Source: a virus. From it: a DNA stretch of 64,000 bases. Location of the stretch: IMG/VR virus record IMGVR_UViG_3300043774_001004, positions 25,842 to 89,841 of that record; one strand, 5' to 3'. Positions 8,810 through 60,130 of this stretch are shown in pieces. Under the pieces are notes generated by a model. It did no database searches and was not told the origin of the DNA. It saw nothing but the letters and a program-made list of their open reading frames with translations. How positions within the stretch are numbered: the stretch's first letter is position 1; each line of letters begins with the position of its first letter. The translations under genes and the position numbers were made by a program.

Positions 8810-9172
8810 ATGAAAAACTTTGGAGAATTTGTAAACGAGTCAAAAAAGAATCATAAGGCCAAATCAGTGAACGAGGCTAAGAAAGCTGATATCGAAAACA
8901 GCGTTGCCGATCTTTATGCTTTTGCAGGACCGAAGACTAAGTATGATGAAAGAATGGTTGAAAGATATGGCCAAGAAGTAGTTGATAAAGCTATAGAAAT
9001 GGCTCCAGCAATTATTGCATACCAGAAGAAGATAAAGGAAATGACCAAAGAGGTTAGCAAAAGCCCAGAGGGTAAAATGTTAATGAAAGTAATTTCTAAT
9101 GCTAAAGGGTATGGAGGTGAGCACTACACCGGCGTTACAGTCGGCGAATTATTTAATGTTTACTCAAGATAA
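8810..9172 (+). CDS. Leader-tagged virion-type protein
   Basis: This 120-residue protein starts MKNFGEFVNES, then carries a second similar site in KSVNEAKK (residues 18-25). The pattern of an aromatic-rich leader ending in a x-N-E site recurs on about twenty proteins in the window and resembles T4 internal-protein capsid-targeting sequences, which the prohead protease cuts after Glu. The body (about residues 25-120) is a charged helical domain of unknown function with a conserved-looking tail GVTVGELFNVYS. Packaging in the virion is inference. Confidence 0.65.
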   Translation: MKNFGEFVNESKKNHKAKSVNEAKKADIENSVADLYAFAGPKTKYDERMVERYGQEVVDKAIEMAPAIIAYQKKIKEMTKEVSKSPEGKMLMKVISNAKGYGGEHYTGVTVGELFNVYSR

Positions 9173-9191
9173 TAAAAATCAATAAAAGACA

Positions 9192-9509
9192 ATGATTAAG
9201 AAATTTGCAGAAAGAAACAATGTTGTAAATGAGGCTAAAATGCCAACTGTTTCTAAGGAACCCATATTCGAAAACAAAGTCATATCAGAAGAGGATGCTG
9301 CAAAGCAAGCTATACTGGATTCTTTGAAGGAGCTTCAAGATGAGTTTTCAGGTCATGTTGATGACGTTCTTGCCTATCTTGAAAGCACTATAGAGGACTA
9401 TGAAGAATATCTCAGCAAAGAGACATATAAACACGTAGATGACTTATTTACACATATTTCAGAAGCGCAAGTTTCCTTAGTCAAAGCAATTATTTCACTA
9501 AGAAAATAA
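9192..9509 (+). CDS. Leader-tagged acidic helical protein
   Basis: This 105-residue protein starts MIKKFAERNNVVNEAK, a variant of the leader with VVNE as the presumed cleavage site at residues 11-14. The rest is acidic and helical (LKELQDEFSGHVDDVLAYLE and following), possibly coiled coil. No enzyme motif is seen. A strong terminator follows, so it ends the unit that begins at 8810. Confidence 0.6.
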   Translation: MIKKFAERNNVVNEAKMPTVSKEPIFENKVISEEDAAKQAILDSLKELQDEFSGHVDDVLAYLESTIEDYEEYLSKETYKHVDDLFTHISEAQVSLVKAIISLRK

Positions 9510-13633: not shown

Positions 13634-16600
13634 ATGCCGATACCTTTAAATGAGCCACCACAGAGGATAACGAATGAACCGCCTACAGGGGTCATTAAGT
13701 TAACCAGAGAGCTTCAATTACTGAAGCCTGTGCTCACGTCTGATGGTGTCTTTACTGATAGAATTACTCTTAACAATACATTTCTTGTTCTTGACTGGAA
13801 TAACTGGCCTGAACTTGAATACGACGTCGTCGATGATCTTTATCAAATTAGAATAGGGGCATCAGGCACTAGTGGTACTGGTGGAATAGGAGCAGCTATC
13901 ACAATTTTAGACGAGGGTAATCCTGTTACAACTAATGTCAGCTCAATCAATTTTGTAGGTGATATAATTACAGCACAGTCCCTAGATCCTCTCGATCCAA
14001 CTGCAGTTACTGTAACTGTTACTACTCCTGCCCAAACCGAATTTTATTCATGTTCACCATGGCAGATTTTAAGTACAAACAATACTCCGGCACTTCTTTC
14101 TACAAATAACGGCCGTGCAAATCTTAACGATAATACACCGCAATTTGTCAACACTCTATATTTACATGTAGATGACTTTAACGGTACAGATCAGGCTACA
14201 TGGATAGATTCATGGCAGGACAGTGGAGCATATGGCTATATTAGTTTAACTGGTATTACAACTGGCGCATACCTAAATGGTTATGTCACTGGTACTTTCC
14301 CAGGCACTAACACAAGAGAGATATACATAAATGTACTTTCTTATAGTTCAACTGATTTTATAAATGGTGAAAAACTAGTTGTTTGTTTTACACAAAACGG
14401 TGCAAATGGTACATCTGGTTCAAGTGGTACATCAGGAACTAGCGGAGCAACATACGGCACCAGTGGCTCATCTGGTACTAGAGGCACTAGTGGTACCAGC
14501 GGTAAAGGTACATCTGGCTCATCAGGTTCATCTGGCTCATCGGGTTCAAGTGGTACTATAGGTACTTCAGGTACGTCTGGTACTACATTTGGATCTAGTG
14601 GTTTAGACGGTACAGCAGGTACAAGCGGTACTACTGGTATAGATGGTTCAAGCGGTACATCTGGTCAAAATGGTACCAGCGGATCATCCGGATCCTCAGG
14701 TTCATCAGGAACCAGCGGTGTTACAGGTTCATCAGGAACCAGCGGTGTTACAGGTTCATCAGGAACCAGCGGTGTTAATGGAACAAGTGGTATAGACGGT
14801 TCTAGTGGAACCAGTGGAGCTAATGGCACTAGAGGTACAAGTGGTACAAGTGGCAATACAGGTTCTAGTGGAACTAGTGGAGCTAATGGCACTAGAGGTA
14901 CAAGCGGTTTATCAGGAACGAGCGGTAATGATGGTTTAAATGGTTTACCGGGTACTTCAGGAACAAGTGGTTCAAGTGGCACTAGAGGGACATCTGGATT
15001 ATCAGGTTCAAATGGAACCAGTGGTGTAACAGGTTCGTCAGGAACAAGTGGTGTTAATGGTTCTTCAGGAACAAGTGGTGCCAATGGCACAAGTGGTTCA
15101 AGCGGCACTAGAGGAACATCTGGATCTTCAGGTTCATCGGGAACAAGTGGTGTAACAGGTTCATCAGGAACCAGTGGTGCCAATGGCTCATCAGGAACCA
15201 GTGGTGCCAATGGCTCATCAGGAACCAGTGGTGCCAATGGCACTAGAGGCTCATCTGGATCTTCAGGTTCATCAGGAACAAGTGGTAATACAGGTTCATC
15301 AGGAACAAGCGGTAATAATGGCTCAAATGGTACTAGAGGTTCAAGTGGCTCAAGCGGTACTAGTGGTGTAGGTACAAGTGGTACTTCAGGTAATAATGGC
15401 TCAAATGGTACTAGAGGCTCATCTGGCTCAAGTGGTACATCAGGTCCTGCAGGTTCTTCAGGTACAAGCGGTGCTGATGGTAATAATGGCTCAAATGGTA
15501 CTAGAGGTTCAAGTGGCTCAAGCGGTACTAGTGGTGTAGGTACAAGTGGTACTTCAGGTAATAATGGCTCAAATGGTACTAGAGGCTCATCTGGGTCAAG
15601 TGGTACATCAGGTCCTGCAGGTTCAAGCGGTACAAGCGGTGCTGATGGTAATAATGGCTCAAATGGTACTAGAGGTTCAAGTGGCTCAAGCGGTACTTCA
15701 GGTAATGATGGTTTAAATGGTACATCTGGTAGTAGCGGTTCGTCTGGAACTAGAGGTTCTTCAGGTACATCTGGTAGTAGCGGTTCGTCTGGCTCATCTG
15801 GCTCATCTGGCTCATCTGGTTCTTCAGGCACTTCAGGTACTAGAGGTACTTCAGGTACATCTGGACAAGACGGAGCAGCTGCACCGGGTTGCTATGAGTA
15901 TTTCTTAAAACTTAACGGTGCCACTGGAGGAAGCCCTTCAGCTCTGACTCCAGGTGAGGCATATCAAAACGTAGCAGCTGCTGCATCCATTACGGAATTT
16001 GCTATATACGAAATTGATGCTAACTCTCTAGATATTTCTTCTTTTCTAAATACTATAACAGCAGGTTGTACAATTACAGTAACTGGTCAGACAAGTGGAG
16101 CAACTCTTACTGCAACCATTGGTTCAGTAAACATCATATCAGGTACAATATATCGTTTTACAGGTTTAACTGTTATTGCATCTAGTGGTACTTTTATAAC
16201 AGCGAATGTCGGTACAGAATTAGCATGGGTTTGTTTCTCATGTGCCGGTACAAGCGGTAATAGCGGTACTTCAGGTACAAGTGCTGTAGGTACTTCGGGC
16301 ACATCAGGAGCTAATGGTCTTTCTTTAGTTACTACAACGACTGGAGGAGGTGTAGTAGAAGTTAGCCCAGGTTGTTTTCAAAATACGGGTGCTGCAGGTT
16401 TTGGTAACTATGTCTATAGCGACCAGGCCTACACAAATGCATATATTTCAGTTACTATATCAAATACTGGAGTATATGCAACAGGCTTAAGTACTAATCA
16501 AATACCCGTAGTTACATCACCTCCAGTAGCAGGTAATTATGACTATTGGATCTTCTTTGGTGCTGGAGGTACTGGTACAGCTTATGGCCCAGGTGGTGTT

Positions 16601-17959
16601 GTGTTAGCTAATTTTATAACACCTGGTTTCTTTTCAGCCGGTGATATTATAACAATCGTCTGGGATGGCTCACTTGCAACATATTATCAAAATGGTGTTG
16701 TAATAGCTACCACTACATTACCGCCTACAGGAGGAAACCCTCTATACGGTTCAACTGTTTTGAGCTCAACTGGTGACCAAGTATGTGACTTTATATTTGG
16801 ACCAGTCGGACAAGGAGGTACTGGTACATCCGGTACTTCAGGCACAACAGGTCCTACAGGTACATCTGGTACTTCAGGAAACAATGGTACATCTGGTACA
16901 AGTGGAGCTAATGGTACAAGCGGTACTTCAGGTTCAAATGGCACTGCAGGTACTTCAGGTTCTTCATCAATATGCCCATGTATCTGTGCAGAATGGGTTA
17001 TTAAACCTACAACAAATCCTGCAGCCGGTCAAGGAGTTCTAAATCCTACATTAGTTGCTACAGGTATTACAAGCATCAATCTACACAATACTGACGCTAA
17101 TTCTATAAACCAGGCGGCTTGGTTTGCTACATGGACCGGAGGCGGTAATTGGATAATGGTTGGTCAGTCAAGTGGAGCTACTGCAAGTGGCTTTACAACT
17201 AGTGTTAATACATCGCCTGGTGGTTTTACTGGCGTGTCACTCGGTGTTACAGTTGTTAGCGGTTCTGGAACTTTTACAGCAAATGAAACTATAACATTCT
17301 GCTTTGATCCAACAGGAGGTGGAGGAACAGGTACTTCAGGTACATCTGGAACTAGCCCCGGAGGAGGTGGCGGTACATCTGGTACTTCAGGATCATCTGG
17401 AACCAGAGGCACATCAGGTGTAAATGGAGCAACAGGTCCTGCAGGTACATCAGGAACATCAGGTGCCGGAGGAGGAAAAGCTATAACGCCAATAGCAGAA
17501 AGTTCATGTCAAATTACAGACAATAGTACAATTTACGTAGGCGACTCGAAGGCAGGATGGGCAGGCCCCGGCTGGGATGTTCAGCGTACAGGAGGCTTGA
17601 CGATCAGTATTAACAGTGCATGGTGTTTAATTAAAATACCAACAGAATTTACCGGCGGTGTTGATGCGTTTAAACTATGTGCTTCAGGTTATTGTGCTTC
17701 ATGTGACGATTCTGACAATATCGGCGCAGCCGTATGGATTGTAAGTTGTGCAGATCTTGAAGGTGCTACAACTGATATTGATCTTGTACTCTGGGACAAT
17801 TTTAGTACTAAGTATTATAGAAACGGAACTTTTTGTCTTACCGGATCAGATAAAGCCCCTAAGACAATTCCAGCATGTGATATGCTTCTTATAGGTTTTT
17901 ATTCTACTGGTGGTACATCCGATACCGTTAATATAACCTGGCGATTAGACGAGGTATAA
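13634..17959 (+). CDS. Giant collagen-like fibre protein
   Basis: This 1441-residue protein is dominated by Gly-X-Y triplets (about residues 256-747, with short runs later) such as GTS, GSS, GAN, GTR and GNN. Proline is almost absent and Thr/Ser/Asn fill X and Y, unlike animal collagen but like other phage and spore collagen-like fibres. Globular parts interrupt it. Three related beta domains (about 142-250, 752-869 and 1120-1225) share a D-x-N-x(4)-W-x(3)-W theme and end in a CF pair. A lectin/SPRY-like domain lies at about 900-1058, and a cysteine-containing head at 1283-1441. Trimeric tail or head fibre with receptor-binding head is likely. The Thr/Ser triplets are potential O-glycosylation sites, and the gene is followed by about 24 kb of glycan genes. 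Confidence 0.88.
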   Translation: MPIPLNEPPQRITNEPPTGVIKLTRELQLLKPVLTSDGVFTDRITLNNTFLVLDWNNWPELEYDVVDDLYQIRIGASGTSGTGGIGAAITILDEGNPVTTNVSSINFVGDIITAQSLDPLDPTAVTVTVTTPAQTEFYSCSPWQILSTNNTPALLSTNNGRANLNDNTPQFVNTLYLHVDDFNGTDQATWIDSWQDSGAYGYISLTGITTGAYLNGYVTGTFPGTNTREIYINVLSYSSTDFINGEKLVVCFTQNGANGTSGSSGTSGTSGATYGTSGSSGTRGTSGTSGKGTSGSSGSSGSSGSSGTIGTSGTSGTTFGSSGLDGTAGTSGTTGIDGSSGTSGQNGTSGSSGSSGSSGTSGVTGSSGTSGVTGSSGTSGVNGTSGIDGSSGTSGANGTRGTSGTSGNTGSSGTSGANGTRGTSGLSGTSGNDGLNGLPGTSGTSGSSGTRGTSGLSGSNGTSGVTGSSGTSGVNGSSGTSGANGTSGSSGTRGTSGSSGSSGTSGVTGSSGTSGANGSSGTSGANGSSGTSGANGTRGSSGSSGSSGTSGNTGSSGTSGNNGSNGTRGSSGSSGTSGVGTSGTSGNNGSNGTRGSSGSSGTSGPAGSSGTSGADGNNGSNGTRGSSGSSGTSGVGTSGTSGNNGSNGTRGSSGSSGTSGPAGSSGTSGADGNNGSNGTRGSSGSSGTSGNDGLNGTSGSSGSSGTRGSSGTSGSSGSSGSSGSSGSSGSSGTSGTRGTSGTSGQDGAAAPGCYEYFLKLNGATGGSPSALTPGEAYQNVAAAASITEFAIYEIDANSLDISSFLNTITAGCTITVTGQTSGATLTATIGSVNIISGTIYRFTGLTVIASSGTFITANVGTELAWVCFSCAGTSGNSGTSGTSAVGTSGTSGANGLSLVTTTTGGGVVEVSPGCFQNTGAAGFGNYVYSDQAYTNAYISVTISNTGVYATGLSTNQIPVVTSPPVAGNYDYWIFFGAGGTGTAYGPGGVVLANFITPGFFSAGDIITIVWDGSLATYYQNGVVIATTTLPPTGGNPLYGSTVLSSTGDQVCDFIFGPVGQGGTGTSGTSGTTGPTGTSGTSGNNGTSGTSGANGTSGTSGSNGTAGTSGSSSICPCICAEWVIKPTTNPAAGQGVLNPTLVATGITSINLHNTDANSINQAAWFATWTGGGNWIMVGQSSGATASGFTTSVNTSPGGFTGVSLGVTVVSGSGTFTANETITFCFDPTGGGGTGTSGTSGTSPGGGGGTSGTSGSSGTRGTSGVNGATGPAGTSGTSGAGGGKAITPIAESSCQITDNSTIYVGDSKAGWAGPGWDVQRTGGLTISINSAWCLIKIPTEFTGGVDAFKLCASGYCASCDDSDNIGAAVWIVSCADLEGATTDIDLVLWDNFSTKYYRNGTFCLTGSDKAPKTIPACDMLLIGFYSTGGTSDTVNITWRLDEV
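14699..14776 (+). repeat. 27-base tandem repeat in fibre gene
   Basis: Three near-identical copies of a 27-base unit (GGTTCATCAGGAACCAGCGG plus TGTTACA) encode GSSGTSGVT triplets. A related 27-base unit with GCCAAT is repeated three times near 15157-15240. Confidence 0.8.
15311..15699 (+). repeat. 168-base tandem duplication in collagen-like region
   Basis: A 168-base unit (56 codons, starting GGTAATAATGGCTCAAATGG) occurs at 15311-15478 and again at 15479-15646 almost without change, and a third copy starts at 15647 and diverges after about 53 bases. It encodes GNN GSN GTR and following triplets, including a GVG break in the Gly-X-Y register. Confidence 0.85.
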
Positions 17960-44857: not shown

Positions 44858-45300
44858 CTATTAGAAAATGTGAATTTAAGAATGACTGGATGGTAATGAT
44901 GGTCGACGAATCAGACCTGTCATATCCCACGTTTAAAAATTTATTTGAACATATGGGTCTTGCATTTGCAGATCTTGAAAATAAATTTATTGTTCTTGAT
45001 GGCAAAGAGATTAAAAATCAAAATTTGTCCAAAGATCATATTTCTGCAATAGAAGCCCATGAAATCGGTCATTTTATATCAGACCATGTCGGAGTGATAA
45101 ATAAATCATTAGAAAGGCTTGAGAAAGAAGCCGATTGGGCAGGACATCAAATCTTACTTAAATATAAAAAGACAAAGGCTGCTAAACTATTAGCAGAACG
45201 TTTTAAAGACAAGTATGAGGCTGAAATAACCGAGTACGATGTAAGCGGAACTGAAAGATATAAAATACAGAATTTCCTAAATGAAGTTAAAAACATTTGA
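44854..45300 (+). CDS. Putative zinc metallopeptidase (HEIGH zincin)
   Basis: A 148-residue protein with the zinc motif H69-E-I-G-H73 in AIEAHEIGHFISDH and a downstream E92-A-D94 in LEKEADWAGHQIL, the gluzincin arrangement (HExxH plus ExxxD). It resembles small ImmA/IrrE-like or M48-like peptidases. There is no signal peptide, so it acts in the cytoplasm or in the particle. The neighbours are leader-tagged enzymes; cleavage of host regulators or of virion proteins is conceivable. It overlaps the next gene by 20 bases. Confidence 0.75.
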   Translation: MTIRKCEFKNDWMVMMVDESDLSYPTFKNLFEHMGLAFADLENKFIVLDGKEIKNQNLSKDHISAIEAHEIGHFISDHVGVINKSLERLEKEADWAGHQILLKYKKTKAAKLLAERFKDKYEAEITEYDVSGTERYKIQNFLNEVKNI

Positions 45301-46228
45301 GCAATTTGTTCTTGAAAACATGCAAGAACAAAACGATTTTAAAAAAATATACATTGCCCTAGACGATGATGATCTTCAGGGTGATGACTTTACATATAAG
45401 AAGTTTTGTAGTTCTAATTTTTTCACACCACTGACCAAGTCAACAACTGACCTTGATCCAAACATGCCGATTTTGAATTACTCAAATGATACAATCAATC
45501 ATTTCTGGGAAAAAATCAAAAAGGACAACGTCTACAACCTACCTAAATACTCAGAAGAGGTTAGCAAGAAAGAAAGATTTCATCAAATAGTGGGTCAACA
45601 TGAGAATGTGCCACTTTCTGTATTCACAAAAAATCATGCCCTACAATATCTTAAGTTTCCTGTAATTGCAAAGCCAAGTGATAACCATAGTGGACTAGGT
45701 ATTCAGGTCTTTAAAAAGGCTGAAGAACTTCAGGACAGTGGTGAAGACTTTGCAGTGTACTCAGAATTTGTAGATAAGAAAGAAGAGCATAGATTTATGA
45801 TCTTTAATGGTCAGCTTATAGCCTGGATGGAAAGAAAGCCTCTTAACCAAAAGGCAAAAACTGGAGATGGTGATAAGGATGGTGAAATGGATTTTGCCTA
45901 TGAATATAAAATGGATGAGCAACTACCAACTGAATATGAAGAGGTGGTTAAGAAGTTTATAGTTCTATTTCCAGATCTACCCTATATGACACTAGATGTG
46001 ATGAAAGGCGTAGATGATAAAGTTTATATAATTGAAATCAATTCTAAGGCAGGTATGCCATTTGATATTACAATAAAGCTTTATAAAAACATCTTTGAAG
46101 ATTTCTATGGAAGAAAGATTGATCCAGAATCAGATAAAAATCTAGAGATGATGGCTACTGAGCTTAAGCAAAAGACGCTTGAAAAAGAAAAAGGTAAATT
46201 TACAATAAAAGATGCTTCTAAGGTATAG
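45281..46228 (+). CDS. Leader-tagged ATP-grasp ligase
   Basis: A 315-residue protein that starts MKLKTFEQFVLENM, the virion-type leader with FVLE as site. The body is an ATP-grasp fold like RimK: FPVIAKPSDNHSGLGIQVF for nucleotide binding, EHRFMIFNGQLIAW in the middle, and YMTLDVMKG followed by VYIIEINSKAGMP for the metal-binding Glu/Asn. ATP-grasp ligases join a carboxylate to an amine or thiol. The substrate is unknown. The leader implies that the enzyme may be packaged and delivered with DNA. It overlaps both neighbours. Confidence 0.82.
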   Translation: MKLKTFEQFVLENMQEQNDFKKIYIALDDDDLQGDDFTYKKFCSSNFFTPLTKSTTDLDPNMPILNYSNDTINHFWEKIKKDNVYNLPKYSEEVSKKERFHQIVGQHENVPLSVFTKNHALQYLKFPVIAKPSDNHSGLGIQVFKKAEELQDSGEDFAVYSEFVDKKEEHRFMIFNGQLIAWMERKPLNQKAKTGDGDKDGEMDFAYEYKMDEQLPTEYEEVVKKFIVLFPDLPYMTLDVMKGVDDKVYIIEINSKAGMPFDITIKLYKNIFEDFYGRKIDPESDKNLEMMATELKQKTLEKEKGKFTIKDASKV

Positions 46229-46796
46229 TCAATTCATATCAGAAAAATGGTCAGGTGATAGCATCACGATTTTTGATGTCGATGATACACTGGTTTTAAC
46301 AAGTGCTAAAATCAAAGTACATGACCCATTTACGGGTAAAAATTATGAGATGACACCCAAAGAGTATAATGAATATGAAAGGGATCCTGATCATATTCTA
46401 GATTTTAGTGACTTTACAAATCCAGATGTCCTAAAGGCAGGAAGGATAATTGACTGGGTTATGAATGTTCTTAAAAAGACAATGGCAGTTGAAAGAGCCG
46501 TTGGTATCATTACAGCACGTGATAGTAAAGAATTGATATTAGACTTTTTGAACCATCATGATGTAAGAATCAATCCAGATTTTATTTTTGCGGTTAACAG
46601 CCCTGGTGAAGGGTACGAGGGTAGTAATGCCGAAAGAAAACAACAGGCATTTGAAAAGCTCATCGATATGGGATTCAGGAATTTCAAATTCTTCGACGAT
46701 GATGCAGAAAACTTACGTTTAGCCAAGGAACTTGAGAAGAAGTACGACATAAAAATGTTGACAAGACAAGTTCGTAAACAGTTTCCTAATGATTAA
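46212..46796 (+). CDS. Leader-tagged HAD phosphatase
   Basis: A 194-residue protein starting MLLRYSQFISEKW (leader with FISE), then ITIFDVDDTLVLTS, the HAD nucleophile motif DxD, VGIITARDS for motif II, and FKFFDDDAENL for the acidic motif IV. It resembles the phosphatase half of phage polynucleotide kinases or related HAD enzymes; no P-loop kinase domain is present. It overlaps its neighbours by 17 and 8 bases. Confidence 0.8.
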   Translation: MLLRYSQFISEKWSGDSITIFDVDDTLVLTSAKIKVHDPFTGKNYEMTPKEYNEYERDPDHILDFSDFTNPDVLKAGRIIDWVMNVLKKTMAVERAVGIITARDSKELILDFLNHHDVRINPDFIFAVNSPGEGYEGSNAERKQQAFEKLIDMGFRNFKFFDDDAENLRLAKELEKKYDIKMLTRQVRKQFPND

Positions 46797-47370
46797 AAAT
46801 TTCGGTCAGTTTCTTAATGAAAACGACGTCGATGCCAGAATTTTCTGTGACATGGATGGGGTTTTATGCGATTTCGATAAAGCTTTTAAATCTTCAAACG
46901 ATGACGGGTTAAGCTTTGAGGAATACGATAAAGTAAATGGTAAAGGCTCAGGATGGGCTATTATCTCAAAACAGGGTGAAGGCTACTGGTCTAATCTAGA
47001 ATGGATGTCAGATGGCAAAGAACTCTGGGACTATCTAAATACTATTTCAGCACCTACTATTCTATCTTCACCCAGTCGTGAATATAGTAGCATCAAGGGT
47101 AAAATGAAATGGATCAATGCCAATCTGGGTATTTCACAAGATACACCAACTACAAAAAGCAAAGATTGGGACAAATCTACCAGAATTATTCTCAGTTCAC
47201 ATAAACATTTATATGTTTTGCCAGACCCAAATGTTAAGTCAATCCTGATCGATGATACACAATCTAAGATCGATAAATGGACAGAGGCTGGTGGCATAGG
47301 TATTTTACATACCAATACAGTTGATACAATTTCAAAGCTTCAGGATATAATCAAACAATATGGAATATAA
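46789..47370 (+). CDS. Leader-tagged HAD 5'-nucleotidase-like protein
   Basis: A 193-residue protein starting MIKNFGQFLNENDVDARIF, where FLNE is a textbook leader site, followed at once by FCDMDGVLCDFDKAF, the DxDG nucleophile of the NT5C-type HAD family. ILSSPSREYSSI is motif II, and SILIDDTQSKIDKW is motif IV. It may dephosphorylate nucleotides. Removal of the leader would leave the catalytic domain starting only a few residues before the nucleophile strand. The argG gene begins 11 bases before its stop. Confidence 0.82.
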   Translation: MIKNFGQFLNENDVDARIFCDMDGVLCDFDKAFKSSNDDGLSFEEYDKVNGKGSGWAIISKQGEGYWSNLEWMSDGKELWDYLNTISAPTILSSPSREYSSIKGKMKWINANLGISQDTPTTKSKDWDKSTRIILSSHKHLYVLPDPNVKSILIDDTQSKIDKWTEAGGIGILHTNTVDTISKLQDIIKQYGI

Positions 47371-48607
47371 AAAGATCGCATCATACGAAGCCCAAGAGGG
47401 TAGCTTCGATAAGGTTCTTCTACTTTATTCAGGAGGGCTGGACACATCCGTTATGTTAAAATGGATTCAGGATAAGTATAACGCTGAGGTTTATGCCCTT
47501 TGTGTTGATATTGGTCAACGTGAAGATTTTGAACCAATTGTCGATAAGGCAATTAAACTAGGAGCTAAAAAATGTGAAGTAGCCAGAGTCGAAAACAAGT
47601 ATGCAATGCTTCAATTAAATGAGGCAATCATGTTTAATGCCGACTATGAAGATGGCTACCACCTGTTCTGTCCTCTTGGTCGAATTGCTATTGCATATAC
47701 TGCAGTTGAATATGCCAGAAAATGGGGTATCAATGTGGTTGCTCATGGAGCAACTGGAAAAGGAAATGACCAGATTCGTTTTGATAACTACATTACTACA
47801 CTGGCTCCTGATATTAAAATCTTGGCTCCAGTTAGAGAATGGGCAATGGGACGTGAAGAAGAGATTGCTTATGCACAAGAACATAACATACCTGTTACAG
47901 CCAGTCTAGAGAAGATTTATAGTTATGATGAAAATCTTTGGGGTTGCTCAGCTGAAGGCGGTGAAATTGAAGATTTTAAGAAAGTGCCACAACTGGATAG
48001 AATTTTGAAATTCACTAAGCTACCTGAAGACTCTATCGACGAGGTAGAATATATTGATATTACGTTCAGTTCAGGTATGCCAATGCTTATAAGTGGCGGA
48101 GAAGATGGTGAAGTAATCATGGATGGTACAACAGCCAGTATAATTAAGAAAGCAAATCACCTGGGCAGAAAGCATGGTATTGGAATTACACATCTTGTTG
48201 AGGACAGGGTAATTGGTCTTAAAGTAAGAGGTGTATATGAGGAACCTGGTGCTGAAATCTTAGTTAAAGCCCATAAAGCACTTGAGAAAACAGTTTGTAC
48301 TAGAGAAGAGATACTTTTCAAAGAACAGGTTGATCGTCAATGGTCACAGTTGGTTTATGAAGGTCGATATTATCATCCCCTAATGGATTCACTGAGAGGC
48401 TTTACACGTGAAATGAATAGTAAAGTTGAAGGTGTTGTTACAATGCGACTATACAAAGGTCGATGTGAAGCTGTAGCCATTACTTCTAAATTTTCTCTAA
48501 ATAATGAGAACTCATCATTTATGAAAGACAACTTTAATCAAAACGCAAGTGCTGGCTTTATTGAGCACTTCGGATATACACAAAGAATCGCATATAATTT
48601 AAAATGA
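47360..48607 (+). CDS. argG: Argininosuccinate synthase
   Basis: A full-length enzyme of 415 residues that condenses citrulline and aspartate using ATP. LLLYSGGLDTSVMLKW is the PP-motif of N-type ATP pyrophosphatases, and AHGATGKGNDQIRFD and LEKIYSYDENLWG are family hallmarks. It overlaps the leader-tagged HAD gene by 11 bases and argH by 4 (ATGA), so it belongs to the same phage unit and is not a chance host fragment. Arginine biosynthesis genes are rare in phages. The citrulline could come from the deiminase-like enzyme at 4017. Confidence 0.95.
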   Translation: MEYKKIASYEAQEGSFDKVLLLYSGGLDTSVMLKWIQDKYNAEVYALCVDIGQREDFEPIVDKAIKLGAKKCEVARVENKYAMLQLNEAIMFNADYEDGYHLFCPLGRIAIAYTAVEYARKWGINVVAHGATGKGNDQIRFDNYITTLAPDIKILAPVREWAMGREEEIAYAQEHNIPVTASLEKIYSYDENLWGCSAEGGEIEDFKKVPQLDRILKFTKLPEDSIDEVEYIDITFSSGMPMLISGGEDGEVIMDGTTASIIKKANHLGRKHGIGITHLVEDRVIGLKVRGVYEEPGAEILVKAHKALEKTVCTREEILFKEQVDRQWSQLVYEGRYYHPLMDSLRGFTREMNSKVEGVVTMRLYKGRCEAVAITSKFSLNNENSSFMKDNFNQNASAGFIEHFGYTQRIAYNLK

Positions 48608-49842
48608 GTAAAATCTGGCAAAAAAACAACCAGTTAGATAGAGATGCAGAAATCTTCTGTAGCTTTACCACTGGCAATGATTATCAATTAGACGATGTTT
48701 ATTTTCTAAAACATGACATCGATGCCAGCATTGTTTGGGTTCAGGCCCTGTTGCAGTGTGGTATTTACAATAATGAAGAGGCAGCCAAAGTAATTGATGA
48801 ACTTCTCCGTATACAAATAGATCATGAACAGGGTGACTTTCATGTTCGACAAAGTGATGAAGACTGTCATACTGCAATTGAAAAAAGGCTTATCGAGATG
48901 ACCGGGGAGCTTGGTAAGAAGATTCATACAGGTCGAAGCAGGAATGATCAGTCATTGACCATGATCAGACTATTCATGAAAGACACACTTACTGAAATCA
49001 TAGGTGACGCAAGTACATTGAATTTGGAAATAAGTGAAAGATTTAATGAATGGTTTGATCAGGTCTTCATCGGCTATTCACATACACAACAGGCAATGCC
49101 TATTACCGTAGGTCACTACTTCATGGCATTTAAAGAATCTCTCCTAGACGATATTTCAAATATCATTTCAACTCATAATCATATCAATCTTTGCCCATTG
49201 GGTACAGGAGCCGGTTTTGGTACACCTCTAGATATAAACAGAGATTTTATTGCAGCAGCACTGGGTTTCAGAGAGGTACAAAACAATAGTCTGTACTGCC
49301 AAAATAGTAGAGGCAAGTTCGAGTTATTATACATACAGTCTCTGATGCAGGTCATGCTTACACTACAGCGACTGGCGTCAGATATGGTGTTATACACTTC
49401 TAGAGAGTATAGCCTGTTTAAGATGTCTGATAGTCTTTCACAAGGTAGCAGTATGATGCCACAGAAAAAGAACCCAGATGTCTTTGAAATAATCAGGGCA
49501 AAAGCCGCAGATGTTATGGCGCTTGAGGAACGGGTTAAGTTTATCATTAAGGGTTTGCCAAGTGGGTATAACAGAGATCTACAAGAAATAAAAGCCTGCA
49601 TTGTTGATGCCTATAATATCACTAAAAACTGTATCTATGTTACAAAGCTGGCTATCAAACATATTGAGCCAAATCCAGAAATGATAGAAAAGAGACTGGA
49701 AAAAGATATAGTGGCCACAGATTATGTCATCAGTAAATGTATGAATGAGCCAGATCTTAATTTCAGAGACTTATACAATGAAATCATGAATGGTGAAATT
49801 AACATGTCAGTTTCAGATGCTGTAAAGCTTAGAATAGGCTAA
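48604..49842 (+). CDS. argH: Argininosuccinate lyase
   Basis: A 412-residue member of the fumarase/aspartase superfamily that splits argininosuccinate to arginine and fumarate. DEDCHTAIEKRLIE, IHTGRSRNDQSLTMIRLF and the signature GSSMMPQKKNPD with the flexible catalytic serine loop are intact. It is slightly shorter than typical enzymes (about 450), mainly at the C-terminus. It is co-translated with argG and followed by a TATATA box. Confidence 0.95.
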   Translation: MSKIWQKNNQLDRDAEIFCSFTTGNDYQLDDVYFLKHDIDASIVWVQALLQCGIYNNEEAAKVIDELLRIQIDHEQGDFHVRQSDEDCHTAIEKRLIEMTGELGKKIHTGRSRNDQSLTMIRLFMKDTLTEIIGDASTLNLEISERFNEWFDQVFIGYSHTQQAMPITVGHYFMAFKESLLDDISNIISTHNHINLCPLGTGAGFGTPLDINRDFIAAALGFREVQNNSLYCQNSRGKFELLYIQSLMQVMLTLQRLASDMVLYTSREYSLFKMSDSLSQGSSMMPQKKNPDVFEIIRAKAADVMALEERVKFIIKGLPSGYNRDLQEIKACIVDAYNITKNCIYVTKLAIKHIEPNPEMIEKRLEKDIVATDYVISKCMNEPDLNFRDLYNEIMNGEINMSVSDAVKLRIG

Positions 49843-49870: not shown

Positions 49871-50146
49871 ATGGGCAATACAAAACACTTTAAGACATTT
49901 GAAAGTTTCTTAAATGAAACCAAATCTGTAAATGAAAATGAAAAATTAGATCTTGATAAGAATGGAATCTATATTCTAGATGGAGGTTTAAACAAGAGTG
50001 GAGAATGGGATGAAAAAAGTTTGAAAAAAGCAAAGGTTCTATATTACACAATGGACTTTAAAGATCCTAAATTAAAAAACTTCCAAGAAGATGGAATGGT
50101 GAAGGTTGATATTAGCGATGATGGTATTGATGTGGTAGAGTATTAA
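49871..50146 (+). CDS. Leader-tagged small protein
   Basis: A 91-residue protein starting MGNTKHFKTFESFLNETKSVNE, with two sites (FLNE and SVNE) in tandem. The body is acidic, with short beta segments (GIYILDGGL, VLYYTMDF). The leader DNA is nearly identical over 54 bases to that of the next gene while the bodies differ. Function unknown; virion cargo inferred. Confidence 0.65.
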   Translation: MGNTKHFKTFESFLNETKSVNENEKLDLDKNGIYILDGGLNKSGEWDEKSLKKAKVLYYTMDFKDPKLKNFQEDGMVKVDISDDGIDVVEY

Positions 50147-50235
50147 CAATTAAATAAAAAATCTATAAAATGAAAAACCAGAAACATTTTAAGACATTTG
50201 AAAGTTTCTTAAATGAAACCAAATCTGTAAATGAA
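49883..50235 (+). repeat. 54-base direct repeat encoding leaders (49883-49936 and 50182-50235)
   Basis: The two copies differ at one base. Each encodes KHFKTFESFLNETKSVNE, and sequence identity stops abruptly where the leader ends. This points to recombination or gene conversion of the leader module. Confidence 0.85.
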
Positions 50236-50424
50236 GGAGCAATAACAAAAGCTATTAGACCTAGCCTGGAAGGTGAAGTTAAAGTAGCCGTTGAAGCTTT
50301 GGAAAATCTGTTAAAATCGACAGGCGCAATCATAGATTATAAACATGCAGATGAACTAGCAGATTGTATTATCGATATCATCGATGCTGCAAAGGCCGAG
50401 GAAAGAGCTGAATACAAAGACTAA
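50170..50424 (+). CDS. Leader-tagged small helical protein
   Basis: An 84-residue protein starting MKNQKHFKTFESFLNETKSV, again with FLNE and SVNE sites. The remaining ~60 residues form helices (VKVAVEALENLLKSTGAIID and following) with no recognisable function. It is part of the four-gene tagged run behind argH. Confidence 0.62.
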   Translation: MKNQKHFKTFESFLNETKSVNEGAITKAIRPSLEGEVKVAVEALENLLKSTGAIIDYKHADELADCIIDIIDAAKAEERAEYKD

Positions 50425-50450
50425 CTTCTACAAATAAAACAATCAAAGGA

Positions 50451-50804
50451 ATGAAATACTTTAAACTATTCGAACAATTTGCACAGAATTTAAAGTCTGT
50501 AAATGAGGCTAAAATCGAGTACTCGTTAAAAGACCTTATGTCAGATGCCCCGAGTAAAGAGTATTCTAAAATGTGTGATTTTATTGCGAGCACTATAGGT
50601 GAAGATCCTAAAAATATCGCAGTAATTACTAGTGAAGACGACAACTTCGGTGATTATGAAGAGAAATTTAGAAATAGCAAGTTTACACCTATGAATAACC
50701 CGTCTGCAGAAACTTCGACTTTCTATAGTAAAGATTCCAATGTGGTTATGAGCAATGACGGAAGCGCTGTTTCATATTTCGTATCTGCAAAAGACATGGT
50801 GTAA
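50451..50804 (+). CDS. Leader-tagged small protein
   Basis: A 117-residue protein starting MKYFKLFEQFAQNLKSVNEA. The first site of its neighbours (FLNE) is eroded to FAQN but KSVNE is kept. The body is acidic and unfamiliar (YSLKDLMSDAPSKEYSKM). It overlaps the next small gene by one base. Confidence 0.6.
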   Translation: MKYFKLFEQFAQNLKSVNEAKIEYSLKDLMSDAPSKEYSKMCDFIASTIGEDPKNIAVITSEDDNFGDYEEKFRNSKFTPMNNPSAETSTFYSKDSNVVMSNDGSAVSYFVSAKDMV

Positions 50805-55024: not shown

Positions 55025-55603
55025 ATGAGTAATCTAGTAGGAAAATACAATCAGTTTGGTAAGAATCCAAACCCTGTAAACGAAGCTGCAGTAACTGTAG
55101 GTGGTAAATTAGTAACACCAAAAACGTTACCAGCAAGTGTAGTTAAGACTATCAACGAAAGAATCGGTGATGAATACGCTGCGCATTATTTCTATAGAAA
55201 TGCAGCCAACTGGTGCAAAGACAAAAATTATAAAAAGGCAGCTGCTTTCTTTGAGGTTGAAGCTAACACTGAATTAGAGCATGCTAAAGGTCTTCAAGAT
55301 TATGTGACACAATGGAATGAACTTCCTGCTATCCCTCCTGCACCAACTGAGGTTAAATTTGAAAGCCTTGTTGATATTGTTAATGGGGCATATGAAATGG
55401 AATATAATCTTTTCCAGAATTATTCAGATTTTCAAACTGATCTATTAACCGTACACCCTGCTACATTTAACTTTATACAAGGGTACTTAAATGGTCAAAA
55501 CGAGTCAGTGGCTGAGTATTGTGATTTAATCAATGCCCTAGAGCTTGTAGATATCGACAATAGACTTGATATTCTTTATTTCGAAAATCAATATTTCGGT
55601 TAA
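55025..55603 (+). CDS. Leader-tagged ferritin-like protein
   Basis: A 192-residue protein starting MSNLVGKYNQFGKNPNPVNE, a leader variant with site PVNE, followed by a four-helix ferritin-like domain. INERIGDEYAAHYFYRNAAN supplies the first metal Glu, FFEVEANTELEHAKGLQDYV gives the ExxE/ExxH ligands of helix B, and EYNLFQNYSDF and a terminal helix complete it. It could oxidise and store iron like ferritin. If the leader is a capsid-targeting signal, iron or an oxidation-protective enzyme would be carried in the particle. It overlaps the next gene by one base. Confidence 0.8.
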   Translation: MSNLVGKYNQFGKNPNPVNEAAVTVGGKLVTPKTLPASVVKTINERIGDEYAAHYFYRNAANWCKDKNYKKAAAFFEVEANTELEHAKGLQDYVTQWNELPAIPPAPTEVKFESLVDIVNGAYEMEYNLFQNYSDFQTDLLTVHPATFNFIQGYLNGQNESVAEYCDLINALELVDIDNRLDILYFENQYFG

Positions 55604-56124
55604 TGAAATTAAAATCTTTCAAAGAGTTTAAAGTATCAGAAAACTTCCAATATCACTTGGACAACGGAATCGGCATATCTGATTCCGTTTTCCGTTTGGG
55701 TAGTGATGCATTTAAGAAACTATTTGAGGAGGCTAAAAAATACTGGGATGAGGATAATGTTATCTTAAATGATAAAGATGCCTGGATAGTTCAAAACCTG
55801 GAAGTTGGTAAAAAGGCCATCTATGATGGTCGTGAAGTTGAGTTAGATACACCATCAAGAGGTGGAGACCAGAAATTTGTTGTCTATCACAACAGTGGCC
55901 GTAAAGACAAAGACGGTAACATTGTAGCCAAAAAGATTGAATGGGGTGATAGCAGTGGTTTAAGCATCAAGAATGACGATCCTGCAGCCGCAGCTTCTTT
56001 TTGGGCGAGACAAAAATGTGATACAAAGGCGAAAATGGACCCACTTACTAAAGGCTTTTGGGCCTGTTATGGACCATCACTTTTCAATAAGCAGTTAGGT
56101 TTAGCATCAGACGAACCTTGGTAA
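55603..56124 (+). CDS. Leader-tagged hypothetical protein
   Basis: A 173-residue protein starting MKLKSFKEFKVSENF, with VSE as probable site. It contains SDSVFRLGSDAFKKLFEEAK and a C-terminal DPAAAASFWARQKCDTKAKM with DPLTKGFWACYGPSLF, which looks like a defined small domain, but I cannot name it. It is joined to the ferritin-like gene by a one-base overlap. Confidence 0.6.
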   Translation: MKLKSFKEFKVSENFQYHLDNGIGISDSVFRLGSDAFKKLFEEAKKYWDEDNVILNDKDAWIVQNLEVGKKAIYDGREVELDTPSRGGDQKFVVYHNSGRKDKDGNIVAKKIEWGDSSGLSIKNDDPAAAASFWARQKCDTKAKMDPLTKGFWACYGPSLFNKQLGLASDEPW

Positions 56125-56127
56125 AAA

Positions 56128-56134
56128 TATATAG
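56128..56134 (+). promoter_or_regulatory. Candidate TATATA-type promoter
   Basis: TATATAG ends only 3 bases before the ATG at 56138, closer than in other copies, so any transcript from it would be leaderless or start inside the gene. Confidence 0.25.
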
Positions 56135-56137
56135 AAT

Positions 56138-56380
56138 ATGAAACACATTAAAACATTCGAAAACTTCTTAACTGAATCCCTTAACGAAGACTTACCTGAT
56201 GGAATTATTCGTGTATTTAAGACTAAAGACATGAAAGACTATATAAAAGACGTTCCTGTAGATAACATCAAAGAAAGAGGAAAAGACATAAAAGTGAAGA
56301 ACTATATTGTTAACACCGTAGTTCTTAAAGATGGCACTAAAGGATGGATATGGTCAGAGAACGAAAATTTTGAAGATTAA
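56138..56380 (+). CDS. Leader-tagged small protein
   Basis: An 80-residue protein starting MKHIKTFENFLTESLNEDL with two sites (FLTE, SLNE). The body is a small basic/acidic beta domain ending in KGWIWSENENFED. It is the first of three adjacent genes whose leaders (MKHIKTFENFL, MKHLQTFENFL, MKHIKTYEAFL) are nearly the same while the bodies are unrelated. Confidence 0.62.
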   Translation: MKHIKTFENFLTESLNEDLPDGIIRVFKTKDMKDYIKDVPVDNIKERGKDIKVKNYIVNTVVLKDGTKGWIWSENENFED

Positions 56381-56383
56381 AAA

Positions 56384-56815
56384 ATGAAACACTTACAAAC
56401 ATTCGAAAACTTCCTGAATGAAGCTATGAGAGATTCATCGAAGGAATATAATGATATGAGATATGAAATCTGGTATCAAGCCCCTAAGGGTTACTTTGCA
56501 AAAGGTATCGGTGAAATGAAAGGTAAAATCGAGACGTCCTATTTTGAAACTTCAGAAGAGGCCGAAGAACATGCAGAAGCTGAAATCGATGGATATTTAG
56601 GTGAGTCTTTATCAGAAAAGACCAGTGCCAATGAAGCATATAGCTACACTCTTAAAGGCGGAGCAATACGTGGAAGTGGAGATACTTGGCCTGATATCGA
56701 AATAGAAGAAACTTCAGATACTATCACCATTTCTCAGAAGATAGGTTCAAAAACAAATAAAGTGCTTTTTAGCAAAAAACAGTTTAGAGAAATGAAAAAC
56801 TCTGACATAAACTAA
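56384..56815 (+). CDS. Leader-tagged hypothetical protein
   Basis: A 143-residue protein starting MKHLQTFENFLNEAMRD (site FLNE). A first small domain (about 23-70) is followed by SEKTSANEAYSYTLKG, which contains another NE site, and then a second beta-rich part. It starts 3 bases after the previous stop. Function unknown. Confidence 0.62.
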   Translation: MKHLQTFENFLNEAMRDSSKEYNDMRYEIWYQAPKGYFAKGIGEMKGKIETSYFETSEEAEEHAEAEIDGYLGESLSEKTSANEAYSYTLKGGAIRGSGDTWPDIEIEETSDTITISQKIGSKTNKVLFSKKQFREMKNSDIN

Positions 56816-56824
56816 AATAAAAAA

Positions 56825-57826
56825 ATGAAACACATTAAAACATACGAAGCCTTTCTAAATGAGGGTAAAGAACTTGAATTAGGTGTAAAATACGTATACA
56901 CTAAAACCGATGAAGTGGGCTATATCAGTACTGGTGGCTCAGATAACCCAAAACACTGGGAATTTTTAGTGAGCATTCAAGGTAGAGGTAAAAATAGTGG
57001 AAAACTCGGAGTTGAATCATATCCTTATGAAGACGTTAAAAAGTATCTCAAGCCTGCAAAAGATCAAAAGGGCGGAGGATTTGAAGACTACTTAAACAAA
57101 GGTGGTCGAGTATGGGATAATGAAAATCAGGAACCAGGTTCTGAAGTAAGCGAAAAGAAGCAGGAACTAGGATTATATGTTATAGGTAGAACATCCCGTG
57201 ATAACACTAAGATTGGTGAGTGGTTAAAGAACTCTGACTTCCATGCTGAATGGAACGCCAGAGAAGGCTATTGGTTATTTCCAGCTGACGATGAAAGTGA
57301 ATATGATGAGTTAGAAAGAGAACTTGATATGCAATTTGCTAATCATGGCATTGATGCCCGATTTGAAGGTATTTTCGAGTCATCTGTAAACGAGTCAATG
57401 GAAACTATCGTTGATGACCCAACTGCACCTGGTGTATTTGCTCGTATAAAGAAGAATAAGCAAGAGTATCGAGATATAATTAAAAATGAATTGAATAAGA
57501 AATTTGATATGGAAGATTCAGGTATGTTATTCCCACATCAGTATAAAGAAGGTGTTGACTATTACACATTTTCAATGGATGATGGTATGGGAGAAACAAC
57601 TGCTAGAATCATTTTCCCAAATAGCGAAAAGGACAAGGAGAAAGAAAAATTTGCAAAAAAGGTTGCAGACCATATCAGTAAATTCGTAGAGAAAGATTCA
57701 AAGATAAAGAAAATTGAAAACGGTCCATCATATACAGGAGATATTGCTAATGCATTTGCCGATCCACAAAACGGTAACTGGACAATAACCTGGAGACCTA
57801 AATTCTTTGTAAGAAAGCAAAACTAA
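56825..57826 (+). CDS. Leader-tagged multidomain hypothetical protein
   Basis: A 333-residue protein starting MKHIKTYEAFLNEGK (site FLNE). An internal FESSVNESMET at about residue 188 is a second site that would split it into two parts. The first part holds GLYVIGRTSRDNTKIGEWLK and a SH3-like start; the second (about 200-333) is an alpha/beta domain (KKVADHISKFVEKDSKIKKI). No family recognised. If both sites are cut, the gene is a two-cargo precursor. Confidence 0.62.
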   Translation: MKHIKTYEAFLNEGKELELGVKYVYTKTDEVGYISTGGSDNPKHWEFLVSIQGRGKNSGKLGVESYPYEDVKKYLKPAKDQKGGGFEDYLNKGGRVWDNENQEPGSEVSEKKQELGLYVIGRTSRDNTKIGEWLKNSDFHAEWNAREGYWLFPADDESEYDELERELDMQFANHGIDARFEGIFESSVNESMETIVDDPTAPGVFARIKKNKQEYRDIIKNELNKKFDMEDSGMLFPHQYKEGVDYYTFSMDDGMGETTARIIFPNSEKDKEKEKFAKKVADHISKFVEKDSKIKKIENGPSYTGDIANAFADPQNGNWTITWRPKFFVRKQN

Positions 57827-58157: not shown

Positions 58158-58427
58158 ATGTTTCCATTTCAAGAAGAAAAAGTTGCTGAAAAAACTTTTA
58201 TCAGAATTTTCCCAGAAGATACCCCTGAGCTGTCACTAAAGTGGCATTGGGATGAGGAAGATAGAATTATAGAGCCAGTTGGACCAACCAACTGGCTTTT
58301 TCAGTTTGATAACCAGTTGCCGACAGGGATAAATAACCAGATCTTTATCCCCAAGGGAGTCATCCATAGAATTATTAAAGGAAATGGTGAACTTAAAATA
58401 AAGGTTATAAAAATCAACACTGTGTAA
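58158..58427 (+). CDS. Small cupin-like protein
   Basis: An 89-residue protein with LKWHWDEEDRIIEPVG and FIPKGVIHRIIKGNGELKIK, the two half-motifs of a short cupin barrel: a His/Glu cluster and a P-x-G-x-x-H. It may bind a metal. Its stop abuts the TTG start of the histidine kinase gene (one-base gap). Function unknown. Confidence 0.6.
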   Translation: MFPFQEEKVAEKTFIRIFPEDTPELSLKWHWDEEDRIIEPVGPTNWLFQFDNQLPTGINNQIFIPKGVIHRIIKGNGELKIKVIKINTV

Positions 58428-58428
58428 A

Positions 58429-59688
58429 TTGAAATTAAAACTAAACCTAATAGCTTTTATGATGGTTGTTTTCTTTGCTCTGAAAACTTCCGTGTTATTA
58501 GATATCTTACCCTCTTCCCCGATCACAAGAGGCTCTGAATACATTCTATTTTTATTAACATCTTATTTCCTGTTTTCTTTCATAAATCATTATTTACGTA
58601 ATGAAAAAGAAAACAGAAAGCTGACTGAAAAGATTATACAAAAGGAAAGAGCATTATCAAATAGAATGGATGCAATCAATCGATCAAGTCCTGTAATTGA
58701 ATTTGATAAAGACGGGATAATCTGTTTTGCAAATAATTCATTTTTATATGCAATGGGATATAAACTAGAAGAGATTATAGGAAAGCATCATAGTATTTTT
58801 GTTTTTGACGATGAAAAAAATTCAAAGAAATATGTAAAGTTCTGGGATAAACTAAGATCAGGTGTTTATTTCAGTGGAGATATTGTTAGAAAGAAAAAGG
58901 ATGGCAGTGAGATCTATTTAAGTGCTACATACAATCCAATTATAAACGAAAAGGGAGAAACCTATCGAGTATTAAAAATCGCAAGAGATATAACTGAAAT
59001 TATTGAAAAGTCAAGGGAAATTGAAAAACAAAACACTTATCTCGAGCACGCTGCTAAAATCTTAAGACATGATATGCATAGTGGTATTAACACCTATATC
59101 CCAAGGGGTATTAGTTCACTTGAAAGAAGATTAAAGCCAGAGGTCGTTAAAGAACTTAAGCTTGAAGCACCTCTTAAAATGCTTAAAGAGGGTTTAAAGC
59201 ATACCCAAAAAGTCTACAGAGGGGTATATGAATTTACAAATCTTGTAAAGAAAGACGTTGTCTTAAATAAAGAACTAATGGATCCTAAAAAAGTTCTTAA
59301 AGATTATTTAGAATCTACTTCCTATTCCGGTCAAGTAATTATTGAAGATCTTCCTGAAATTGAAATTAATGAATCTCTTTTCTGTACTGCCATTGATAAT
59401 CTGATCAGAAATGGCCTAAAGTACAATGATAGTGATACTAAATGGGTCAAGCTTTATATGTTAGATGAAAATACTCTGGCTATACAGGACAATGGTAGAG
59501 GTTTAAGCCAAGAAGACTTTGACCATCTTTCAAAACCATACACAAGAAAAGAGGGTCAGAAAGAATCTGGCTCTGGTTTAGGTCTAAATATATGTACAGC
59601 AATTTTACATGAACATGGTTTCGATATTACATGTAAAAAGGCAGGTAAGTGTGGGACAATAATGATGATAAATATAAAAATAAACTGA
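58429..59688 (+). CDS. Membrane sensor histidine kinase with PAS domain
   Basis: A 419-residue kinase with TTG start. Two membrane helices (about 5-24 and 36-54) enclose a loop of about a dozen residues, then a coiled linker, then a PAS domain (about 84-192: SPVIEFDKDGIICFANNSF, YKLEEIIGKH, GEIYLSATYNPI-like strands). A helical hairpin follows with the presumed phospho-acceptor H214 in ILRHDMHSGI, and an HATPase domain with DNLIRNGLKYND (N box), IQDNGRG (G1) and GSGLGLNIC (G2). All catalytic boxes look intact. The response regulator follows after 4 bases. The stimulus is unknown; the tiny periplasmic loop and PAS suggest an internal or membrane signal. Confidence 0.9.
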   Translation: MKLKLNLIAFMMVVFFALKTSVLLDILPSSPITRGSEYILFLLTSYFLFSFINHYLRNEKENRKLTEKIIQKERALSNRMDAINRSSPVIEFDKDGIICFANNSFLYAMGYKLEEIIGKHHSIFVFDDEKNSKKYVKFWDKLRSGVYFSGDIVRKKKDGSEIYLSATYNPIINEKGETYRVLKIARDITEIIEKSREIEKQNTYLEHAAKILRHDMHSGINTYIPRGISSLERRLKPEVVKELKLEAPLKMLKEGLKHTQKVYRGVYEFTNLVKKDVVLNKELMDPKKVLKDYLESTSYSGQVIIEDLPEIEINESLFCTAIDNLIRNGLKYNDSDTKWVKLYMLDENTLAIQDNGRGLSQEDFDHLSKPYTRKEGQKESGSGLGLNICTAILHEHGFDITCKKAGKCGTIMMINIKIN

Positions 59689-59692
59689 AAAA

Positions 59693-60130
59693 ATGATAGA
59701 ATCTATACTATTGGTAGATGATGAGGATCTATTCCACTTAGTATTTGAAGATGCATGTAGTCTACTCGACATTACGTTATCTTTAAGTGCTGTAAACAGT
59801 TCTGATGAAGCAGAAAAGATGTTCAAAAAATGGTTTGAAACTGGTGACACGGATGAAAGACCGAAGTGTGTATTTGTGGACTTAAACATTATAGGTTCTA
59901 GTTTTGATGGTATCGAATTGATAAGAAAAATCAATTTTGAATATGGGAATCACGTAGTGATTGGTATAATTTCATCAAGTAACGAGGCAACAGAACAGGC
60001 AAAAGCAATTCAGGCAGGTGCCCAGTTTTGGATTGTTAAGTCAGACGACATTGAACCTCGCCTAGAGGATTTTAAAAAGGACTATTTAGAGTACGAAAAA
60101 AGAAAAGCTCCCTTTAAAGTCTATAGATAA
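59693..60130 (+). CDS. Response regulator receiver protein
   Basis: A single-domain receiver of 145 residues without a DNA-binding output. The acidic pair D9-D10 is in LLVDDED, the phospho-acceptor is D63 in CVFVDLNI, the conserved Ser is in GIISSSNEA, and K116 is in WIVKSDD. It would take phosphate from the kinase before it and act by protein contact, perhaps with the coiled-coil membrane protein after it. It is spaced 3-4 bases from both neighbours. Confidence 0.9.
   Translation: MIESILLVDDEDLFHLVFEDACSLLDITLSLSAVNSSDEAEKMFKKWFETGDTDERPKCVFVDLNIIGSSFDGIELIRKINFEYGNHVVIGIISSSNEATEQAKAIQAGAQFWIVKSDDIEPRLEDFKKDYLEYEKRKAPFKVYR

Follow-up and report, generated by a model that had tools for sequence, protein, structure and literature searches.

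In phage T4, the internal head proteins are made with propeptides of 10-19 residues, termed capsid-targeting sequences (CTS) (PMC9026906). The CTS of IPIII is 10 residues long, with targeting depending mainly on residues 4 and 7 and processing on residues 8 and 10, and the prohead protease gp21 cleaves after L/I-X-E (PMC9026906). The host receives both the T4 internal proteins and foreign proteins fused to a CTS, beta-galactosidase and GFP among them (PMC9026906). A ferritin-like protein has also been met in a phage particle: gp217 of the Vi01-like phage Sajous1 was identified as a ferritin by Phyre2 and was seen by MS of virions (PMC10892097).

Here we describe a viral ferritin gene whose product carries a CTS-like leader. 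The stretch of DNA analysed (the window, 64,000 nucleotides) comprises bases 25842-89841 of a virus record of 89,841 bases. A T4-type large terminase was detected on the remainder of the record by tblastn against phage terminases, the closest of which included those of the jumbo phages Sphingomonas phage PAU and Tenacibaculum phage PTm1. The hosts of this phage group are probably Bacteroidota. The remainder of the record also carries ORFs that we take, from reading their sequences, to resemble the T4 clamp loader, sheath and tube proteins. Neither gp21 nor gp23 was found on the window contig, which is probably a fragment of a phage genome.

Results

A ferritin with a complete ferroxidase site

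The gene at 55025-55603 (plus strand) encodes a protein of 192 aa, in which a sequence-only reading had recognized a four-helix ferritin-like domain. This was confirmed by a match to Pfam Ferritin (PF00210, E=2e-18) and by matches to PDB sequences of bacterial non-heme ferritins (best 1.7e-15, query residues 35-190). An AlphaFold2 model built from an input alignment of 57 viral relatives had a mean pLDDT of 91.6, with low confidence at the N-terminus, and contained helices at residues 37-67, 70-96, 115-140, 145-172 and 180-190, corresponding to a four-helix bundle plus helix E. Foldseek and VIA-align grouped the model with non-heme ferritins and human H ferritin (Z ~23, rmsd 1.2-1.4 over ~160 residues).

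The ligands were assigned by sequence alignment, not from distances in the model, and are given with their equivalents in human H ferritin (HuHF). They comprise E50 on helix A (55172-55174, codon checked; HuHF E27), the bridging ligand E83 and H86 on helix B (55271-55273 and 55280-55282; HuHF E62 and H65), E126 on helix C (55400-55402; HuHF E107) and the second-shell ligand Q158 on helix D (55496-55498; HuHF Q141). The first four residues were identical in 57/57 viral sequences and Q158 was present in 56/57. The earlier reading had placed Glu/His ligands on helices A and B, which holds for E50, E83 and H86, but the predicted site extends to helices C and D. By alignment, the full human-H-type intra-subunit di-iron set (E27/E62/H65/E107/Q141) is thus present, and such a complete ferroxidase site fits a role in Fe(II) oxidation and sequestration. 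Over the core, the window gene and that of its nearest relative (L001) differed by 49 synonymous and six non-synonymous codon changes (dN 0.021, dS 0.837), indicating that the ferritin is under purifying selection.

Two related families were considered and rejected. The position equivalent to Met52 in helix B, which we take to be the heme-ligand position of bacterioferritin, is occupied by L84 and was Leu in 57/57 sequences. Dps proteins have an inter-subunit site and no helix E, whereas here the ligand set is intra-subunit and helix E is present. Structure prediction and ligand comparison, which the sequence-only reading had proposed as checks, therefore favoured ferritin over Dps and bacterioferritin.

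Distribution of the family

Relatives of the ferritin were encoded on at least 167 viral contigs. A scan of prokaryotes with one genome per species (84,980 species) gave a single match, on a MAG contig; the scan used exact degenerate seeds, which more distant cellular ferritins could escape. No match to the window protein or to a second member of the family (L089) was found by tblastn among the 50,697 phage records of INPHARED, which was searched for cultured relatives, whilst BFVD contained a 44% identical fragment, designated Ftn, of an uncultured Caudovirales phage. On these sequence comparisons, the ferritin belongs to a phage-specific family.

The N-terminal leader and its cleavage-type site

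The ferritin domain is preceded by the extension MSNLVGKYNQFGKNPNPVNE|AAV, in which 20 residues (55025-55084, plus strand) stand before a VNE|A site and a further 16 residues, the predicted mature N-tail, stand before helix A. The sequence-only reading had pointed to this NPVNE site before the ferritin domain and had called the leader virion-type. From comparison with 56 relatives and from the T4 CTS rules, the 20 residues are predicted to be a capsid-targeting propeptide, which is disordered in the model. Cleavage after E20 would leave a mature ferritin of 172 aa starting at A21 (55085-55600), the site being predicted from VNE|A together with the gp23 sites of relatives described below. A wrongly assigned start codon was rejected as the origin of the extension, as no in-frame ATG follows 55025 before the first helix begins and the relatives have leaders of similar length.

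The aromatic residues of the window leader are at positions 8 and 11 (Y8, F11), not 4 and 7. The sister leader, MSGIVGRYSFDKKVNE|AAV, retains the cleavage-type site, not the remainder of the leader, and in the sister L001 the aromatics are Y8/F10. Across the family, aromatics exactly at residues 4 and 7 occurred in 12/57 ferritin leaders compared with 0.06 expected (shuffled mean), for example in MKTFQTFKENGITINE|A, MKTFDNFRKKDSVNE|A and MRTFKHFKDKTNE|G. The pattern [VILMT]NE was found in 25/57 leaders (3.9 in shuffled sequences) and [VILMT]NE[AGS] in 12/57 (0.61 +/- 0.77 shuffled; 0/285 core windows), these counts being taken over related, non-independent sequences, on whose tree the NE state needs 11 changes. 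The VNE|A-type site thus exceeds chance across the ferritin family, which bears out the site named by the earlier reading, and the window leader is best described, on the same comparison, as a divergent case of the family pattern.

Leaders of this kind were widespread in the genomes concerned. A fixed motif built from the published T4 CTS rules, [FY]..[FYW][VILM].E, occurred within the N-terminal 20 residues in 14/109 genes on the window contig compared with 6/1195 of the later 20-mers (p 9e-12); the corresponding figures for the other ferritin loci were 101/943 and 21/8490 (p 2e-81). This enrichment at N-termini indicates that CTS-like leaders are in wide use among the ferritin phages. The leaders of the ferritins themselves miss the compact motif but carry its parts. 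The generic pattern [VILM].E[AGS] alone was set aside, as its N-terminal enrichment was weak (13/104 compared with 42/616 internal windows).

Several other leader-bearing genes were seen in the window. Small genes at 8810-9509 and 49871-50804 have VNE sites (SVNE|AK, VVNE|AK and SVNE|GA), and the near-identical leaders at 49871 and 50170 suggest recent copying of a leader. T4-CTS-like leaders also begin the genes at 45281-46228 (MKLKTFEQFVLE), 46212-46796 (MLLRYSQFISE) and 46789-47370 (MIKNFGQFLNE), whose products we take from their sequences to be an ATP-grasp-like protein and two HAD-type phosphatases; these are possible packaged enzymes.

Prohead proteases and gp23 sites in relatives

Proteases of the gp21 type (PF03420) and gp23 (PF07068) were found in several ferritin-bearing relatives. 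In the clade containing the window ferritin, the gp23 prodomain ended with HSLNE|SAG in three phages and with HSINE|NAY in a fourth, in each case at residue 43, and HSINE|NAY at residue 43 was also found in one relative outside the clade. The gp23 prodomains of other ferritin phages ended with IVSE|A, LVTE|N or LVTE|A at residues 59-60. We identified these putative gp23 sites from their resemblance and position. The VNE|A of the ferritin agrees with the resulting patterns [LI]NE|[SN] and V[ST]E|[AN]; having the form hydrophobic-X-E, it is a predicted gp21-type cleavage site.

In four relatives the gp21-type protease (L110, L111, L115 and L116, on the contigs of L059, L038, L046 and L030, respectively) was fused to a scaffold-like C-terminal half with 7-12 copies of a 14-residue Y[LIV]AEN repeat, giving a protease-scaffold polyprotein rich in cleavage-like LAE sites. 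Two BFVD entries named prohead protease (A0A6J7WPK9 and A0A6J7WIS1) contained a ferritin/Dps-like bundle by structure comparison (weak E ~0.1, probability 1.00), which is maybe a second link between ferritin-like domains and the phage head.

Leaderless relatives and a possible intracellular role

The phylogenetic tree placed the window ferritin in a well-supported clade of 22 sequences, nearly all with such leaders. In the second half of the tree, many ferritins were leaderless (L050, L066, L013 and L080) and, in L066 and L094, the ferritin was leaderless although other genes on the same contig bear leaders. Since the leader is missing in many relatives, packaging is not common to the whole family.

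The leaderless relatives bear on an alternative in which the ferritin acts within the infected cell, controlling iron and oxidative stress of the virocell, with a leader that is non-functional or weakly functional. Many of them retain the full ferroxidase site, the ferritin is an accessory gene (see below), and the Dps-like and Mn-catalase enzymes of other phages have been proposed to act in the cell (PMC8008677). We nevertheless consider a purely intracellular ferritin unlikely: aromatics at positions 4 and 7 and [VIL]NE sites are found far more often than expected by chance, the leaders match the cleavage sites in the capsid proteins of the phages themselves, and almost every member of the 22-sequence clade has a leader.

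Neighbouring genes

The ferritin is the first of five leader-bearing genes in a run (55025-57826), and in two relatives (L035 and L049) it lies inside long runs of leader-bearing genes. The next gene in the window (55603-56124, plus strand), whose start codon overlaps the stop codon of the ferritin by a single base, belongs to family c1. This family was present in 25/62 ferritin loci and adjoined the ferritin, on either side, in 14; most members of a second c1 group have a [VIL]-X-E|A site directly before the conserved C-terminal domain. The predicted structure of the c1 neighbour (pLDDT 85) gave no Foldseek match at E<=0.001. In relatives, the C-terminal domain of c1 matches phrog_7595 (unknown function) and is annotated as HVA1 family in some Roseobacter phages.

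The remaining genes of the run, all on the plus strand and each with the CTS motif, are a small gene at 56138-56380 (MKHIKTFENFLTE) and genes at 56384-56815 (MKHLQTFENFLNE|A) and 56825-57826 (MKHIKTYEAFLNE|G). A small cupin-like gene follows at 58158-58427 (plus strand); it belongs to a cluster (c2) found repeatedly near the ferritin in relatives and has a weak Pfam match below the cut-off. In the isolate Flavobacterium phage immuto (NC_055915.1, 101270-102086; L109), the order c3-c1-cupin is the same as in the L050 ferritin locus but without the ferritin, which identifies the ferritin as an accessory gene; the same flanking genes without a ferritin are among the points in favour of the intracellular alternative.

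Elsewhere in the window, ORFs at 58429-60130 are presumably a PAS histidine kinase and a response regulator, and 47360-49842 holds adjacent genes that we read as argininosuccinate synthase and lyase, presumably an unusual phage cargo. The gene at 13634-17959 encodes a protein of 1441 aa that contains long collagen-like repeats (GTSGSSG), and a long artefactual ORF lies antisense to it.

Discussion

Taken together, the leader and the sites that it shares with gp23 suggest that the ferritin of the window lineage is packaged in the head via its leader, by a T4-type CTS route, a reading to which we assign a probability of roughly 0.57. The claim of the sequence-only reading that the leader is of virion type is well supported by comparison, with packaging itself standing as a prediction drawn from it. 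A main weakness of the packaging reading is that leaderless relatives are common. The exact role of such a lineage-specific packaged ferritin is held with clearly less confidence than packaging; it would probably be that of a ferroxidase or iron sink acting at infection. The sequence-only reading had proposed that a packaged ferritin could bring iron into the host or protect DNA from oxidation, and both roles are hypothetical here.

In the course of events that we infer, from cage assembly, packaging and cleavage to ejection and function, a ferroxidase-competent ferritin of the 24-mer type would be made with the 20-residue N-terminal capsid-targeting propeptide, which would bind the scaffolding core of the prohead. 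A gp21-type prohead protease would then cleave behind VNE20, so that the head would contain mature ferritin A21-G192. A 24-mer ferritin cage measures ~12 nm and is too large to pass intact through a tail tube, so that delivery would need disassembly, with subunits passing the tail with the DNA and reassembling in the next host. Delivered CTS fusions such as GFP suggest, by analogy, that subunits could pass in this way (PMC9026906). The most likely role of the delivered ferritin would be to oxidize free Fe(II) and store it, thereby reducing Fenton damage early in infection. The wider proposition, that widespread T4-like environmental phages pack active ferritin via a cleavable propeptide and deliver the ferritin or its iron with the genome, is more tentative, and we rate it at somewhat short of even odds.

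Two alternatives share the packaging step with the preferred reading and differ from it in role only. The size of the cage speaks against ejection of assembled 24-mers and so favours a ferritin that is packaged and then retained, protecting the packaged DNA or binding iron in the capsid. The leader evidence applies equally to such a protein, as do the Dps-like domains in BFVD proteins named prohead protease. We consider retention decidedly unlikely, however, as the internal proteins of T4, and beta-galactosidase and GFP fused to a CTS, do reach the host (PMC9026906). The other alternative is an internal 'Ferrojan horse', in which iron-loaded ferritin is packed and feeds the next host or the iron enzymes of the phage. 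Ferritins store iron, and gp217 of Sajous1 was found in virions (PMC10892097), but the published hypothesis concerns tails and entry, Vi01-like phages infect TonB/FeoB mutants unimpaired (PMC10892097) and only small amounts would be expected per head, making an iron carrier highly improbable.

If the preferred reading of a packaged ferritin is correct, phage particles would be iron-handling objects, each able to carry ferroxidase subunits or stored iron. This would be relevant to the debate over what viruses contribute to iron cycling in aquatic systems (the Ferrojan horse hypothesis) and to the survival of incoming phage DNA under oxidative conditions. The leader yields a simple molecular prediction, a cut after VNE20, and the variable leaders would illustrate the way in which enzymes are enlisted as head cargo by T4-like phages. 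The literature searched, outside which most subscription journals lay, contained no description of a capsid-targeting leader on a phage ferritin; both halves are known (CTS cargo in T4 and ferritin-superfamily enzymes in phages), and the combination appears to be new.

Among known systems, several resemble one part of the proposed arrangement. In Gratiaviridae gut phages, Dps and Mn-catalase are likewise phage-encoded enzymes of the ferritin superfamily, but they belong to other families, are proposed to act inside the cell and have no described packaging leader (PMC8008677). Sajous1 gp217 is likewise ferritin-like and in the phage particle, but has been discussed as tail-associated and not as an internal head protein; tblastn of the phage collection with the window ferritin gave no sequence link to it. 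In P1, an N-terminal signal directs DarB into the head (PMC9024508), the phage and the cargo both being different.

The non-heme ferritins of Vibrio cholerae (3qz3), Escherichia coli (FtnA) and Helicobacter pylori and human H ferritin have the same fold, di-iron site and helix E, but are only ~22-26% identical to the phage ferritin, which differs in having an N-terminal leader. The FtnA site-B/C residues E130, E49 and E126 are replaced in the phage ferritin by S161, T82 and G157, respectively, which makes the predicted phage site closer to that of human H ferritin. IPI-IPIII and Alt of T4, like the window ferritin, have a short aromatic N-terminal propeptide and a hydrophobic-X-Glu site for a gp21-type protease, and T4, like these phages, places diverse cargo behind a common leader. 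The window ferritin differs from the T4 internal proteins in the nature of the cargo, in a distance between the aromatic pair and the cleavage-type site that is greater by several residues, and in that its packaging is predicted from comparison.
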